DNA from: Dacryopinax spathularia
Taxonomy: Eukaryota; Basidiomycota; Dacrymycetes; Dacrymycetales; Dacrymycetaceae
Reading direction: 5' to 3'
Length of the DNA: 64,000 nt
NCBI GenBank assembly: GCA_037974965.1
Contig: JBBPFI010000004.1
Span: 1,488,001-1,552,000 of the forward strand
The position numbers and the translations under genes were made by a program. The notes beneath the pieces were generated by a model. It searched no databases and had not been told where the DNA came from. It was given only the letters and a program-made list of their open reading frames with translations. Positions 11,661-60,341 of the stretch are shown piece by piece. Each line of letters starts with the position of its first letter. The first letter of the stretch is position 1.

Positions 11661-12843
11661 CGCTGTGGGTGTGGGCCTTGGGCTGGGGAGAGTGGGTTGG
11701 CGGAAGGAGGAACGCAGGGGTTGTCGGTGTGGTGGGGAGGGGGTGTGCTGGGCTGGTGAGGTCGGTGAGATGGGAGGTGTCGCTGCGAAGTGGACGTGGC
11801 GGGACAGTTTGCCTGGCTGGAGGGGGATAGATAGGGATAGGGATATATGCTCCTTTGCTTGCTCGCAGTCGGTAGGCGGGGCACAGTCAGGAGCGTTGCC
11901 GCGGGTGGTCGAAGGTGGGTCTTCCGTGGCGAGTGGTGCGTGGTGCGTGGTGAGTGGTGCGTAGCGGTCGATGAGTCGAACAAAGGGTATCTTCCTCCTT
12001 CCCCAGATATAAGCTCAAGGTTAGGGGAAGATCAGCCCGCAGCTCCCCGTGAGCGCTCGTCCACCCAGCAGCAGAGGACTTTCGGGTTGCCCACGTCACC
12101 CGACTTCGCGTGAAGATGTGTCAGCGCCTTTTGCCCTCTTACCTCCGCTTCTGAGGCGTCACAGCCCCGAGGTATCGAGTGAACGGACTAAACCCGCAGG
12201 GTGGTATAAAGTGAAAGGCGATGATGAGCTGGTCTGAGCTGGGCGGGAGTCATCACACGAAGGCGCGGGGTGCGGTGCGGTGAGGCGAAGCGCGAGGCAA
12301 CGAACGGGGATCGATCAGCGACGATCAGGGTCTTGGGCTCGGAGGAGGCTTCTGCCCGAGCGGGAGAAGACTGTTTTTGGGCTTCTTTGGGATTTGGGAG
12401 GAGGGGTTCTTTGCTGGAAACTTTAGTGCAGATGTTATCGCGGTCTATCAATTTGTCGTACTGATTGTGCACAATAATCAACAAGAGAACACAGTCACCA
12501 CCCAGCTCATAAACCCGCTCATCGCCCCACAAGTGAAACGCGAGCGTGCATTCCCGTCGTTGACTCTGGCTGGAATGTGGAGGCCCCCCCTCGGAGTTGC
12601 GGAGCCGAGAGAAGCAGCGGGTCCAAATATAGAGTTTTGTGATCGATCGAGCCCTGGACATTGCCACTCCCGCGTTTTGGCGGGGGACGCGTTTTGTTCG
12701 TGCTCTGTTGCTCTACTGCTTTTGCCTGGCTGTTGTGCTTGCTATTTGTGCTTTCCTTCCTTGGAACGTAGGCAGCTCTCGCACCGCGTTCTTCGTACAC
12801 ACCAACTAGCGACCAAACCCACCACCAGCACTAATACACCAAT
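11661..12843. promoter_or_regulatory. 1.2-kb divergent intergenic region between zinc-ribbon gene and OGG1
   Basis: No convincing coding sequence. It holds both divergent promoters. A short imperfect tandem repeat of GTGGTGCGT-like units lies at about 11931-11963. The part before OGG1 (12700-12843) has long pyrimidine stretches. Confidence 0.5.
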
Positions 12844-14547
12844 ATGCAGACCCCCCCAGGCTTCCGCTCCATCCCCCTCACCCCTTGCCAACTAAGGCTC
12901 GACACCGTCCTCCGCTGTGGCCAATCTTTTCTCTGGCATGTATATCCTCTCTCTTCCTCTTCGCTCTCTTCGCCCTCTCCCGCTACTACATCTTCCCCAT
13001 CTTCCTCCTCTTCCTCCTCTGCCTCTTCCTTCTCCACCCCCGCTACTACCGCTGCGAACGGCTCGCCGAGCGTGAAGAAAGAGGATGAAGGGGAGAAGGG
13101 GGTGGAGAAGGAGAAGGAGACGGAGACGGAGAAGCACCAAGAGCCGACGCATGAGTATAGACTGTGTCTGCTCGATAGGCTGGTGTGTCTGCGACAGGGA
13201 CCTCAGCATCTTTTCTATCGGGCCGTCTTCCCCCCGTCCTCACCGTCGTCGTCATCCTTCTCAACTTCTTCAACTTCGCCGACCACCTCGCCAGCTGCGA
13301 GGGCAACCCCGGACGAAGCAGACGACGTCTCCAACTCAACCCTAACCTGGCTCCAGTCCTACTTCCAACTCACATACGACCTTCCGGCTCTCTACTCTCA
13401 CTGGTCCTCCCAAGACCCGATCTTCGCCCGTATCTCCGCTCGGTCCAACCTCACCGGTATCGTCACCCTCCGACAAGACCCGTGGGAATGCCTGCTGTCC
13501 TTTATCTGCTCCCAGAACAACCATATTTCGAGGATTACGAAGATGGTCCATTCACTTCCGCTAAACTACTCGAAGCCCTTGGTGGAGGTCGAGCATCCGA
13601 CGAATGCGGGGGAGAAGGTGGTGTACTACCCATTTCCCGAGCCGGAGGCTCTGGCGGCACCGGAGGTGGAGCAGAAGTTGAGAGAGCTAGGGTTCGGCTA
13701 TCGCGCAAAATATATCCAGAAGACCGCTGCGATGATCGCCTCCTTCGCCACCTCCTCAACATTGTCGCAACTATCCGCATCGTCTACGAGCGAAGGCAGC
13801 ACCAGCACCGAGACGCCAAAAACGGGACGCGAATACCTGCTCTCCCTGCGTGCCGCGCCCCTCCCCGACGCCCGCGCCGCCCTTCTAGCCCTACCTGGAG
13901 TTGGGCCGAAAGTAGCCGACTGCGTCCTTCTCATGTCCCTCGATAAAACCAGCGTCATCCCCGTCGACACCCATGTCCTCCAGATAGCTGAGCGGTGGTA
14001 TGGCCTGAAGCAGGGAAAAGGGAAAGGGATGACGCCGGCGCTCTATGAGGCAGTGGGGGATAGGTTGAGAAGCGTTTGGGGTGAGAGGGCGGGTTGGGCG
14101 CAAACGGTCATGTTTGCTGGGGATCTGAGGATGTTTGCGGAGAAGGCGGAGGGTGCGACCATTAAGGTCGAGGTGAAGGAGGAGGACAGCGTGCAAGTGC
14201 AGTTGCCCCTCTCACCGACCTCGGAGAATGGTACCGACACCCCTCCCGTGGCAAACCGGCGGAAGACAGCCGTCCGAACCGCTGTTGCCGTCGAAACGCC
14301 GACCAAGCAGAGACGGCTGAGGAACCAGATACCACCCACGCCAGACTCGCTGCCCTCCCAGGGAAAGAAACGGAAAGTGGACTACTTTGAGATCGTGGAA
14401 GAAGAGGAGCTTGCGGATTTGAGTACCGGAACAGTCACGAAGATCGAGGAAGTTGTGAAGGTTGAGCTGAGCGAGGTGAATTGGGACATCGCGGGGATGG
14501 CCGAGAGGGTCAAGCTGCGGCGGAGGAGGGCGGTCGTGAGACCTTGA
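12844..14547 (+). CDS. OGG1: 8-oxoguanine DNA glycosylase/AP lyase OGG1
   Basis: Removes 8-oxoguanine paired with cytosine in base excision repair. A single-exon gene of 567 residues. The N-terminal OGG domain starts at residue 1 (LTPCQLRLDTVLRCGQSFLW) and continues after a Ser/Thr/Lys/Glu-rich insertion of about 70 residues. The helix-hairpin-helix GPD motif is PGVGPKVADCVLLMSLDK followed by VPVDTHV-like PVDTHV. The catalytic lysine is K356 (codon 13909-13911) and the catalytic aspartate D375; the 19-residue spacing equals human K249-D268. CSQNNHISRI is the conserved DNA-contact helix. A second low-complexity insertion precedes the HhH. The C-terminus (about 450-567) is a long basic/acidic tail absent from animal OGG1 and may be nuclear targeting. 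A broken copy of the 3' half lies 1.5 kb downstream. Confidence 0.96.
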   Translation: MQTPPGFRSIPLTPCQLRLDTVLRCGQSFLWHVYPLSSSSLSSPSPATTSSPSSSSSSSASSFSTPATTAANGSPSVKKEDEGEKGVEKEKETETEKHQEPTHEYRLCLLDRLVCLRQGPQHLFYRAVFPPSSPSSSSFSTSSTSPTTSPAARATPDEADDVSNSTLTWLQSYFQLTYDLPALYSHWSSQDPIFARISARSNLTGIVTLRQDPWECLLSFICSQNNHISRITKMVHSLPLNYSKPLVEVEHPTNAGEKVVYYPFPEPEALAAPEVEQKLRELGFGYRAKYIQKTAAMIASFATSSTLSQLSASSTSEGSTSTETPKTGREYLLSLRAAPLPDARAALLALPGVGPKVADCVLLMSLDKTSVIPVDTHVLQIAERWYGLKQGKGKGMTPALYEAVGDRLRSVWGERAGWAQTVMFAGDLRMFAEKAEGATIKVEVKEEDSVQVQLPLSPTSENGTDTPPVANRRKTAVRTAVAVETPTKQRRLRNQIPPTPDSLPSQGKKRKVDYFEIVEEEELADLSTGTVTKIEEVVKVELSEVNWDIAGMAERVKLRRRRAVVRP

Positions 14548-15445: not shown

Positions 15446-16107
15446 CCAAAAAAGTAGCGGACTGCGTGCTGCTGATGTCCCCCGACCAAATTCGCGTCAT
15501 CCTCGTCGACACGCATGTCCTCCAGATAGCTGAGCGGTGGTATAGCCTGAAGCAAGGAAGGGGAAAGGGATGAGGCCGGCGCTTTATGAGGCAGTCGGGG
15601 ACAGGCTGAGAGGCGTGTGGGGTGAGAGGGCGGGTTGGGCGCAGACGGTCATGTTCACTGGGGATCTGAGGATGTTTGCGGTGAAGGCGGAGGGTGCGAC
15701 CATTAAGGTCAAGGTGAAGGAGGAGGAGAGCGTGCAAGTGCAGTTCCCCCTTTCACCGATCTCGCAAAATTGTACCGACACCCCTCGCGCGGCAAAGAGG
15801 CGGAAGACAACTGCCCGAACCGCTGCTATCCTACGAACGCCGACTAAGCGGTTACCGTCGAAGAACCAGATACCACCTACACCAGACTCGCTTCCGTCCC
15901 TCGAGAAGAAACGGAAAGCAGACTACTTCGATGCAATCGAGGATGAGGATGTGGTGGATTTACGTGGCGGCCGGGTGGGGGGTGGGCGGGTGGGGGGGGG
16001 GGGTTCGGGGAAGACGTGAAGGTCGAGCTGAGCGAGGTGGACTGGGAGGTATCAGAATGGCGGAGAGGGTTAAGCTGCGGCGTAGGAGGGCGGTTGTGAG
16101 ACCTTGA
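15446..16107 (+). pseudogene. Truncated, frameshifted OGG1 copy
   Basis: Aligns to OGG1 13907-14547 at high nucleotide identity by eye. It begins at the codon for the catalytic lysine (AAA GTA GCG GAC) and runs past the stop into the 3' flank. The whole glycosylase N-terminal half is missing. One base is lost in the purine run at about 15551-15572 relative to OGG1, shifting the frame to a stop at GGGATGAGG. Further on, the C-terminal tail is disrupted by a G-rich expansion (about 15964-16012). A stretch from 15570 to 16019 stays open by chance but cannot make an active enzyme, as it lacks K, D and the DNA-contact helices in one frame. Confidence 0.88.
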
Positions 16108-25050: not shown

Positions 25051-25597
25051 ATGCCTTTCACCGGTAGCGATATCATTAAGGTGCGCCGCCCATTCCCTTC
25101 CCCAGAGAGCAGCACGTTGACCGAACTCACGAACATCTAGATCATGTAAGCCCCCTTTCTACCTCAACATACAGGCCTGGGCAACAAAGTTGACGCGCAC
25201 TCGGAAAGCCTCGCGATCATCCTCCCTCCCCTGGGTGTATTCCTCGAGCGTGGATGTAACATGGATCTCCTGGTGAGCCCTCCTTTTCACTCTGCGCAGA
25301 AGGAGGACGGTGGCTGACTGGGCTTGTGTTTTGTGTGGGAGTAGATCAACATTCTGCTTACTTGTGAGTCTCTTTCCCTGAACCGTGTGAGAGAGCGGCT
25401 GCTGATTGGGGTGGCGTAGGCTTGGGTTATATTGTGCGTTTTTTCTATTATTGGCTGGGTTCGGTGACTTGGAGGGTATATGCTGACCCGTTGAACGTCC
25501 TTAGCCCGGCATCCTGCACGGTACGTCTCTCCGTATTCTGACAGTATCACGGGTTACTGACGTCCACCCAGCTCTATACATCATCCTCAAGTTCTAA
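25051..25597 (+). CDS. PMP3: Plasma membrane proteolipid 3 (PMP3/UPF0057 family)
   Basis: A tiny two-span membrane protein that affects plasma-membrane potential and salt tolerance. The 57 residues match PMP3 along the whole length: MPFTGSDIIK, then LAIILPPLGVFLERGC, DLLINILLT, LGYIPGILHALYIILKF. The coding sequence is spread over seven exons: 25051-25080, 25141-25145, 25209-25272, 25345-25363, 25420-25433, 25505-25520 and 25572-25597. These total 174 nt (57 codons plus stop) and every junction has GT and AG. Exon 2 is only 5 nt (ATCAT); without it the frame breaks before the first membrane helix. Introns (373 nt) make up twice the coding length. Confidence 0.95.
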
Positions 25598-53695: not shown

Positions 53696-53937
53696 CAGGC
53701 CTTGCGTACGGCAGCTGCGGTGCGACCCACGGCTCCCATACCCAGATCTCCAGAGCGGTGCCAATGTTCGGTGTTCGAACCGGTACTCTACTGTAATATT
53801 ACATGAATTGGTCGGGTCTCCGAAAAGAGGTCGGTAGAGAGTGAGCGGCATCGATGGGATGGATAAAAAGCAGAATAATAAGGCAGTGTGACGACAAACC
53901 AATGGTCGATGTGGCAGTGACGACTTGCGTAGCGCAC

Positions 53938-56919
53938 CTATTCCTGCCCGAAACCAACGGTCTCCCTAGCAATCTGATCAGCGCCTGATAAATAGTGAGG
54001 TAAGGCTACTTACTCAACCGCTAGCGTTAACTTCTTCTCCAGCGTCTCGTAATCCTTGTATGGCGGCAGATCAATACGGTTGAAGCACGTGTGACTCTTA
54101 GGCAACCCGTTGGGATCGCCAGACTTCTCGATCGTAAACCGCCTGGGTCCATCCGAGCCTTGGAGGTCCTTGAATCCGTTGACGGGAATACGAGACGTCC
54201 CAGTTGCAAATTGCAACAATCGGCTCTTCCGCTCTGGCTGCCACGACCTGACGCATTTCCAGAACCATTGGATGACTTCATCGTTCATCTCGTAGCCTCG
54301 ATAATCAGTGAACTTGGTCCAATCATCCATATCAACCTCGGACATGCCGCCGATAAGCAGCTCAAGCTCGCGCTCGTCAAACACATTGATAAGTTCTTGA
54401 GGAATGAGCTCCAGGAATCCAACCATAAAGGCATCAAACTGTTCCTTGACGCGCTTGTGGATCCTGTACTCGACCACGGCACTGAAATACCCGTTAGCCG
54501 GACATGAGAATGGGTAGATGCGAAACGTACTCTACGTATTCCTTCTTGTTCTCCTCAGTGACGGGAATGTTAGCTCCGCCAGGCTTCAACTCCACGGTCA
54601 CCATTTCACCAAATCGGTCCTCAATCGTAGTGAATGTCTCATCAATGACATCAGTGATATCATTCTCCCTGATAGTCCGTCAGCAACGTCGCCAAGTATG
54701 TTTGTCCAACGTACAGCATCCAGGTCATGCCACGGTGCAGCTCTACGTCCACGCTCTCAAGGTCTGCAAGCACAACCTTCTTACGCAAGATCATCTTGTA
54801 GAACGCTACAATGAAGTATGCGTCCAGGAAACGTCGATGGAAGATGGCCAGTCCTACGCAGCGCCCAATGAACTTGAAATAGTTCAGGTGTTCAGGATTG
54901 ACGCCGGAAGCGGGGTTGATCTGCAGGGTGTAGTTGTCGTGCGCAGAGTACTCGAAAAGGCAGTAAAACGGATTGAACATCTCGTGCGACAGAAGGAAGA
55001 AGAACTCTCTGTTCATGCCTTCAGGATAACTGCGAAACCTCGATCGAATTCAGCACTCACCTCGACAGGCCGCCATAGTCAAGACCGTCTTCGCCGTCGA
55101 ACTTGATCATCAAACGCTTCTTAAGATCGTTCGGCGTTTGACGCATAATCTCCGCATAACTGTCTTCGAAAATATGGTTGCGCCGTACTTTAATTTGGCA
55201 ATTGCCAGGCGTAGGCCGAAGCGCCGGCTGACTCCGGAAGTAGATAAGCTTGCGCCTGAAGTCGCGCTTGTACTGGGGAACATTCTGGTCGAGCGACGAT
55301 GGCAGACGCGGATCATCCCAAGTCGTAGTCTTCGTGTTGTGATCGACGAAGTACACCCGAGCAGTGGACGTGAGACGCATTTCCCAGCCAGACGGAAGGG
55401 GGCCCAGCTGTGAGACGGTCGTTGGCTGCAAGGTGAGGTTGTTGTTGTTCGGTCCCAGAACACGGATGAACTGCTGACGCCGCGGATCCACCCAGGTAGT
55501 GGTGCGCGTGTTGTGATCCACATAGTAGGGACGGCCTTCCGGCGTATGGCGCTCTTCCCATCCTGCGGGAAGAGGACCAGATCCAGCCGCCGTCGGCGAC
55601 GAGGTTGAGGCAACCACCGGTGTTTGGGATGTAGGGGCCACAGAGGACGCGCGGCTACCGCCGACGGAGTTGGATGTCTCCAGCATCTCGTCCACAAGCA
55701 TGCGTCCGTCATGTCTGGCACGCGCGCTTTGGACCTGACCGCCACGCTCGGCGTCATTGACGGATTGATTAGCAGAAGGACGATTCCAGGTTGTCGTTCG
55801 AGTGTTGTGATCAACATAATACTGCCGCCCAAGATGGTCTGTGCGCCTTTCCCACCCCGGCGGAAGGGGTCCATCCCGGTCCTCATGGGGATTGAAGTTA
55901 CGAGGCAAGGTTGAGGTGGTGGCGGCTGCCTCCGCTGTGGGATTCGCATTGGTACTGGCTGTCGCGGCTGTAGGTGTTCCAGCATTGACAGCTGGAGCCG
56001 GGTTTGATGTGATTTGAGATTGCGGGCTTGACACCGCGTGAGAAGCGCTTCGTGCGACCCCAGTGCTCTCCCCAGTCGGCAGCGGGCCCGAGGACGTAGT
56101 CGTCACGGTCTGAGAGGTCGGCCCGCTTTCTCCCGCGCTCATCCTGCTCGCTGCCGAAGCCGAATGCTGCAGGTTTGGTGCTGCAGAAGAACTTGTTGTC
56201 AGGGAAGCCGTACTCGATGCCACATCTGGCACGCCCAAGTTGCCCGACGCTTGCGACGGACCAGGGTTGGTGATAGGGGTTGAAGTATTCGTGGAAAGAT
56301 AGATGATCAATTTGCCATGAACGACTTGATTATCGTTCGATTTCTTCAAGTCGAGAGTTAACATCTCTGCTAGAGGGGATTAGATGTTCTTTCGATGCCA
56401 TCTTTGTAAACGAACCTTGACCTCCGAGCTCAAAATCCAAAACCTCGCTAACTCTGACATTGACTACACCAAGAAAGCCTTGATCCTTGCGTTTGAATTT
56501 CCGCTGATCAAAAATCTGGACAGTTACAACGGAGGAATCCTTTACAGTACTGGGCCACGATCAGCTGGAGCCGGAGCGGACGAAGCTATGTATTACTCAC
56601 AGATCAAAGTTCTCATTCCAATATGGGTTAAGAGTCTTTTTAATCACGCTAGTCGTGTGCGTTTGCTCCGAGTCGACGGTGATAACGGCAAATGGATCCG
56701 GGAGTCGCAGCAAGTCGCGCTTAACCAAGCCGTCCGCTGCGACAACTGTTCGTAATACAAGGTCATCAATAGCTATCCTTCATGAGACCAGCAGCAGAAA
56801 GACTGCGCGCTCACCAGTTATCCGAATCTTCTTGGTCCTGTGAGAGCAAGATAAGCATCACAGATAGAGTGTTTGAGCAAGCAGGATACTCACAGAGATC
56901 TCCTGGATGACTCTGCCAT
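53938..56919 (-). CDS. RSP5: RSP5/NEDD4-type HECT ubiquitin ligase, copy A
   Basis: C2-WW-WW-WW-HECT E3 that ubiquitinates membrane cargo and other PPxY proteins. Nine exons: 56919-56894, 56837-56815, 56745-56601, 56549-56416, 56366-55061, 55008-54715, 54668-54531, 54481-54014 and 53965-53938, giving 853 residues. The C2 domain starts [20 protein letters not shown]. Three WW domains lie at about 55875-55790, 55575-55490 and 55410-55310 ([24 protein letters not shown]). HECT begins [14 protein letters not shown], with the catalytic cysteine in KSHTCFNR at about 54085. The last exon of 28 nt gives the canonical EETVGFGQE end; reading on past the exon-8 donor would stop early. Stops converge with ABD1 (242 bp). 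Confidence 0.96.
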
Positions 56920-57419
56920 GATTGGCAGAATGATGTTTATGGAGACAGGCGGTCGACGATGCCAAAGACGACGATGAGGACGACTGGAAGAGGAGGCTAT
57001 GCGACGGTACGGCGCAAGGGGATGTCGGAGTGTGTAAGCAACCACGGAGGCTTTGCCTCAGGTGCCGTCATCGCCCCCTTTCCACGCAGCCATGGCGCGA
57101 CCCGAAGAACTACTAACTAACTACCAGTGAACGAATGGGAATGCACGGCTGGAATCACCTGGGTACTACTAACCATTTCGGATGGAAACTATCGTGCACA
57201 CACGACTGGTTTAGCAACATGTCTCATCTATGCCAATTACATGTTCGAAACGAAACAGATAGCATCCATTATTCCAGGACAAGGTGTTGATGGAGAAAGT
57301 CAAATGAATGATACAGCGAGGGGAGGGCGTCTATTACAAAGGCGCAAACAGTACAACGGCATAGCAATGGGCGATCGAGAGACCCAAAGGTATAGGGATT
57401 CATCACTTGAGCTAGCTCG
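56920..57419. other. Intergenic region between tandem RSP5 copies
   Basis: 500 bp holding the copy A promoter and the copy B 3' flank. No gene seen. Confidence 0.4.

Positions 57420-60341
<2,922 letters not shown>

Follow-up and report, generated by a model that had tools for sequence, protein, structure and literature searches.

The five bases ATCAT at positions 25141-25145 of the window, the whole 64,000-nt stretch of DNA that we analysed (C4:1488001-1552000, in a host genome of 29.2 Mb and 24 contigs), very probably form a constitutive 5-nt exon in a gene whose product is an ordinary membrane proteolipid of the PMP3 family. Two independent lines, the splice signals and the protein, converge on these same five bases. 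As the preliminary description had proposed, seven exons of 30, 5, 64, 19, 14, 16 and 26 nt (174 nt in all) join to a full-length PMP3 free of internal stops, and the exon structure, together with the reading frame that it has to keep, can be read from the DNA. Translation of the joined exons of 25051-25597 gave a product of 57 residues followed by a stop: MPFTGSDIIKIILAIILPPLGVFLERGCNMDLLINILLTCLGYIPGILHALYIILKF. The parts of the gene are as follows.

25051-25080, plus strand: PMP3 exon 1, 30 nt, encoding MPFTGSDIIK
25081-25140, plus strand: intron 1, 60 nt, GT-AG, phase 0, donor GTGCGC, branch-like GTTGACC
25141-25145, plus strand: putative 5-nt microexon ATCAT, contributing Ile11 and two bases of the Ile12 codon
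25146-25208, plus strand: intron 2, 63 nt, GT-AG, phase 2, donor GTAAGC, branch-like GTTGACG, weak acceptor AAAG
25209-25272, plus strand: PMP3 exon 3, 64 nt
25273-25344, plus strand: intron 3, 72 nt, phase 0
25345-25363, plus strand: PMP3 exon 4, 19 nt
25364-25419, plus strand: intron 4, 56 nt, phase 1
25420-25433, plus strand: PMP3 exon 5, 14 nt
25434-25504, plus strand: intron 5, 71 nt, phase 0
25505-25520, plus strand: PMP3 exon 6, 16 nt
25521-25571, plus strand: intron 6, 51 nt, phase 1, length divisible by three, without in-frame stops
25572-25597, plus strand: PMP3 exon 7, 26 nt, stop TAA

All six introns are of the GT-AG type, and each contains a branch-like site of the CTGAY or TTGAC type 12-28 nt before the following exon. 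When exon 1 was joined directly to exon 3, the frame shifted and a stop appeared after 26 residues; retention of intron 1, 2, 3 or 4 likewise introduced a premature stop. ATCAT would be a very short internal exon between usable splice sites, the acceptor of intron 2 being the weak one, and it is required both for the frame, which its skipping destroys, and for the residue spacing seen in the anchored relatives described below. As a separate observation, a retained intron 6 would lengthen PMP3 by 17 residues.

Residue spacing in PMP3 relatives

The product matched the Pfam Pmp3 profile (PF01679) with 88.4 bits, above the curated cut-off of 22.9, and across the whole domain (profile positions 1-49 of 49). 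The protein itself is thus ordinary for its family, with 49/49 positions covered, and only the structure of its gene is unusual. Pmp3, according to the PF01679 description and to general background, is a small plasma-membrane protein affecting membrane potential. The family search returned four places in the genome, with at least three other PMP3 genes, located on C11, C2 and C5.

The N-terminal stretch of the microexon-containing protein aligned without gaps to the three other PMP3 genes and to six bacterial rows; as a gapless N-terminal alignment says little without an upstream anchor, we put the weight on the anchored cases. In two of the three other genes (C11 and C2), as in the microexon-containing protein, exactly eleven residues separate the S of an SD pair from the PP motif. 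The sole solved relative, PDB chain 7ueb_F (Ric1/PscF; E = 4e-05), which was picked up using the whole PMP3 protein as query, reads DIRRLILAFILPP and has the same spacing from a D anchor. Two bacterial loci (L026 and L027) have D where this protein has D7 and R where it has K10, again with the same spacing from the D anchor. The C5 gene, which lacks SD, and the bacterial locus L036, which has neither D nor K/R at the matching places, gave no anchored support. Among the 13 bacterial loci, ten hold the peptide KIILAIIL; because this peptide was itself the search pattern, the letters there are biased and their identity in those ten is no evidence. The loci without it are L026, L027 and L036, and two of the six bacterial loci taken into the alignment belong to this group.

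Splice signals, chance and competing gene models

Splice-site matrices were trained iteratively on 200 kb of other stretches and on the window with the PMP3 gene masked. The training was confined to GT-AG introns of 40-100 nt (a range that we set ourselves), started from a general splice-site consensus and drew on 316 candidates, giving 105 predicted introns with a median length of 61 nt. With these matrices, the three best donors within 25051-25280 were the proposed ones at 25081, 25146 and 25273, and the two best acceptor-plus-branch scores within 25081-25280 fell at 25141 and 25209. Relative to the trained introns, the intron 1 donor stood at the 90th percentile and the intron 2 donor at the 58th; the site-score sums of these two introns lay at the 75th and 37th percentiles of the 105. 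The acceptor of intron 2 is weak when taken alone, its score of 1.4 falling below the 5th percentile (2.1); with the branch site included, 16% of all AGs do as well. An AG at 25175 looks stronger than this acceptor; it lies 29 nt past the donor and has a poor branch site.

We then estimated how often such an arrangement would arise by chance, with tests that were chosen after the exon had been seen. None of 20000 dinucleotide shuffles of the 128-nt stretch contained an AG-N5-GT that would give Ile-Ile between two introns of 45-100 nt; of 24680 overlapping 128-nt stretches from the genome, 4 did. When any two residues of the set ILVFMCA were allowed, the counts rose to 98/20000 and 359/24680. 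Among 1946 AG-N5-GT occurrences in 528,000 strand-bases, with the PMP3 gene masked, four had inner sites equally good and none combined such inner sites with outer sites about as good. A scan of 264 kb for further microexons of up to 24 nt between long coding exons found none among 204 combinations of outer site and phase, where the control gave 1.2 per round; the scan used strict thresholds, is blind to neighbours with less than 60 nt of coding sequence, so that the PMP3 exon itself would escape it, and has low power. Microexons may be rare in this genome and the PMP3 gene may be unusual for it, as these counts faintly suggest.

Gene models were enumerated from the start codon to exon 3 with one or two GT/GC-AG introns of at least 35 nt, and 60 models were kept, the unspliced frame included. 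Among them, the ATCAT-containing model gave the expected protein; the ranking of the 60 was given no weight, as its target was a PMP3 sequence from general background that already included both residues. The best one-intron model dispenses with a microexon: a single 126-nt GC-AG intron at 25083-25208 would join exon 1 to exon 3, with KVLAII in place of KIILAII. It keeps the frame, makes the protein one residue shorter and yields a product that still matches Pmp3 with 81.9 bits, although the first five Pfam profile positions are dropped. GC-AG introns may occur in this genome, since the PMP3 gene on C2 seems to use one, but the GC donor in question scored -4.4, under a matrix whose training set contained GT donors only, whereas the GT lying two bases upstream of it reached 7.8. 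In addition, 126 nt exceeds our self-set modelled range of 40-100 nt, even though one sister gene has an intron of 236 nt. We regard this model as highly improbable. The same holds for a decayed copy in which the PMP3 frame would be a remnant: the genome does carry at least three other PMP3 genes, but none of the seven exons here is damaged, start and stop codons are present and the splice sites are usable, and of the three genes scored together this one matched Pfam best (88.4 bits, against 73.5 and 79.8; the C5 copy stood outside the comparison).

Proposed order of splicing and known tiny exons

The preliminary description had suggested intron-defined splicing, and the intron lengths of 51-72 nt, close to the genome median, fit this suggestion; in excerpts from PMC2397502 and PMC3642047, intron definition is inferred for fungi, basidiomycetes included. 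The most likely reading is a constitutive microexon that would be joined by stepwise, intron-defined splicing. The splicing itself, like the order of removal, is what we infer. Introns 1 and 2 would each be recognised as a unit of their own, across the intron, and would probably be removed one after another, because their inner sites, only 5 nt apart, could not be used simultaneously. Once either intron was gone, ATCAT would lie inside an exon of 35 nt or 69 nt, so that its own recognition as an exon would never be needed. The five bases would always be continuous in the precursor with an intron or an exon, and a free 5-nt exon would never have to be held. If it is spliced in this way, the gene, with six introns in 174 coding bases, a 5-nt exon and a protein whose conservation gives the right answer beforehand, offers a small natural system for testing splicing that does without recognition of the exon.

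It is also conceivable, though unlikely, that the exon is real and acts as a regulatory switch, its skipping or the retention of a flanking intron leading to a dead-end mRNA, so that splicing efficiency would set the level of PMP3. The stops described above, after skipping and after retention of any of introns 1 to 4, would suit such a switch, and an excerpt from PMC11121469 describes a microexon in Trichoderma that switches between two transcription factor isoforms. However, the same property is expected of many intron-rich genes. Moreover, as far as the available part of PMC2397502 goes, exon skipping is associated with exon definition, and intron retention with intron definition, so that skipping would not be expected in an intron-defined system. 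A more specific form, which we consider quite unlikely, is a sensor of splicing order, in which a splicing speed altered by stress would decide whether full-length PMP3 or dead-end mRNAs are made. Were this true, a 5-nt exon would tune a membrane-potential protein by way of two introns that are not removable simultaneously.

Returning to the constitutive microexon, its size is less extreme than the preliminary description had supposed. The claim that 5 nt is near the lower limit does not stand, as a 1-nt exon with transcript reads has been reported in Fusarium, and 2-5 bp exons are cited for Arabidopsis, Drosophila and humans, together with small exons in fungi (PMC12940212, in excerpt). The knowledge of the smallest exons is therefore unchanged, and the PMP3 5-nt exon is a further example, not a limit case. 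The same source, in the portion available, states that micro-exons are frequently missed. The PMP3 gene would also serve well for checking annotation programs.

The Fusarium exon, in CYP621A, resembles the PMP3 one as excerpted in PMC12940212: it is tiny, lies between two short introns, is demanded by conserved protein spacing and was recognised from the reading frame and from a relative without introns, the same kind of reasoning that we applied to PMP3. The two differ in that the CYP621A exon has 1 nt, 20 orthologues and transcript reads in two species, whereas the PMP3 exon has 5 nt and is known from one genome, by sequence only. The P450 genes of Phanerochaete chrysosporium, a basidiomycete, are similar in that introns of 45-55 bp are frequent and the shortest exon measures 6 bp; in contrast to PMP3, their microexons lie in P450 genes and are proposed, in the accessible section of PMC1184071, to promote alternative splicing. 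Stwintrons, in the partial accounts at hand, are comparable in that two introns lie very close and are probably removed in steps, but they leave no exon between them, whereas the PMP3 locus must keep 5 nt: removing the whole tract, ATCAT included, caused a frameshift. A literature search for a PMP3 microexon found none among the matches listed (titles and abstract starts), and one for Pmp3 proteolipid introns in fungi gave no match.

Sister genes, intron origin and other genes in the window

A comparison of intron positions in related PMP3 genes, put forward in the preliminary description as a check, lent no support: none of the six introns has a position exactly in common with the three other PMP3 genes of the genome. 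The closest pair was formed by intron 1 of the C11 gene and intron 2 of the present gene, a single nucleotide apart at coordinates 87 and 86. This C11 intron (L001 1435-1500) and intron 2 could reflect intron sliding or two separate gains. The PMP3 gene on C2 seems to use its GC-AG intron at L002 1450-1503, with donor GCACGC and branch-like GCTGACC. The C5 gene (L003, minus strand; reverse-complement 1154-1265 and from 1502) contains the 236-nt intron and has a long polar tail beyond the PMP3 domain.

We also considered an origin of introns 1 and 2 by duplication, as they look alike by eye and their global alignment score of 4 (shuffle mean -7.1) was reached in only 1 of 300 shuffles. This candidate was rejected. 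When these two introns were compared with the trained ones, 6 of 210 comparisons reached this global score, as did 142 of 5460 other pairs; for the local score the counts were 21/210 and 631/5460. Because 142 of the 5460 other pairs score as high or higher, we attribute the resemblance to splice signals that the introns have in common. In a DNA search of its own genome (E up to 1), which scored the best candidates only, the 128-nt stretch matched only itself, with no sign of introner-like copies. A processed intronless copy was likewise rejected, as all four places of the family search, this gene and the three others, have introns.

Elsewhere in the window, two adjacent copies resembling Rsp5/NEDD4 ubiquitin ligases lie on the minus strand at 53800-59900, with WW-domain ORFs at 55057-56379 and 58544-59866. 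The latter, the only one of the pair compared with the PDB, had RSP5, a yeast protein, as its best solved relative. Together with the short, densely placed introns and the DUF6593 match given below, this makes us regard the host as a fungus and probably a basidiomycete. Two further minus-strand ORFs, 54010-54531 and 57420-58010, closely resemble each other on visual inspection and look like HECT fragments. An ORF for an OGG1-like DNA glycosylase occupies 12835-14547 on the plus strand. A short plus-strand ORF 1 kb downstream of it (15546-16019) repeats its C-terminal part with changes, as seen by eye; it had no Pfam match and is probably a partial duplicate of the OGG1-like ORF. We also observed a sub-threshold match (25.9 bits, against 27) to DUF6593, a family typical of basidiomycetes.
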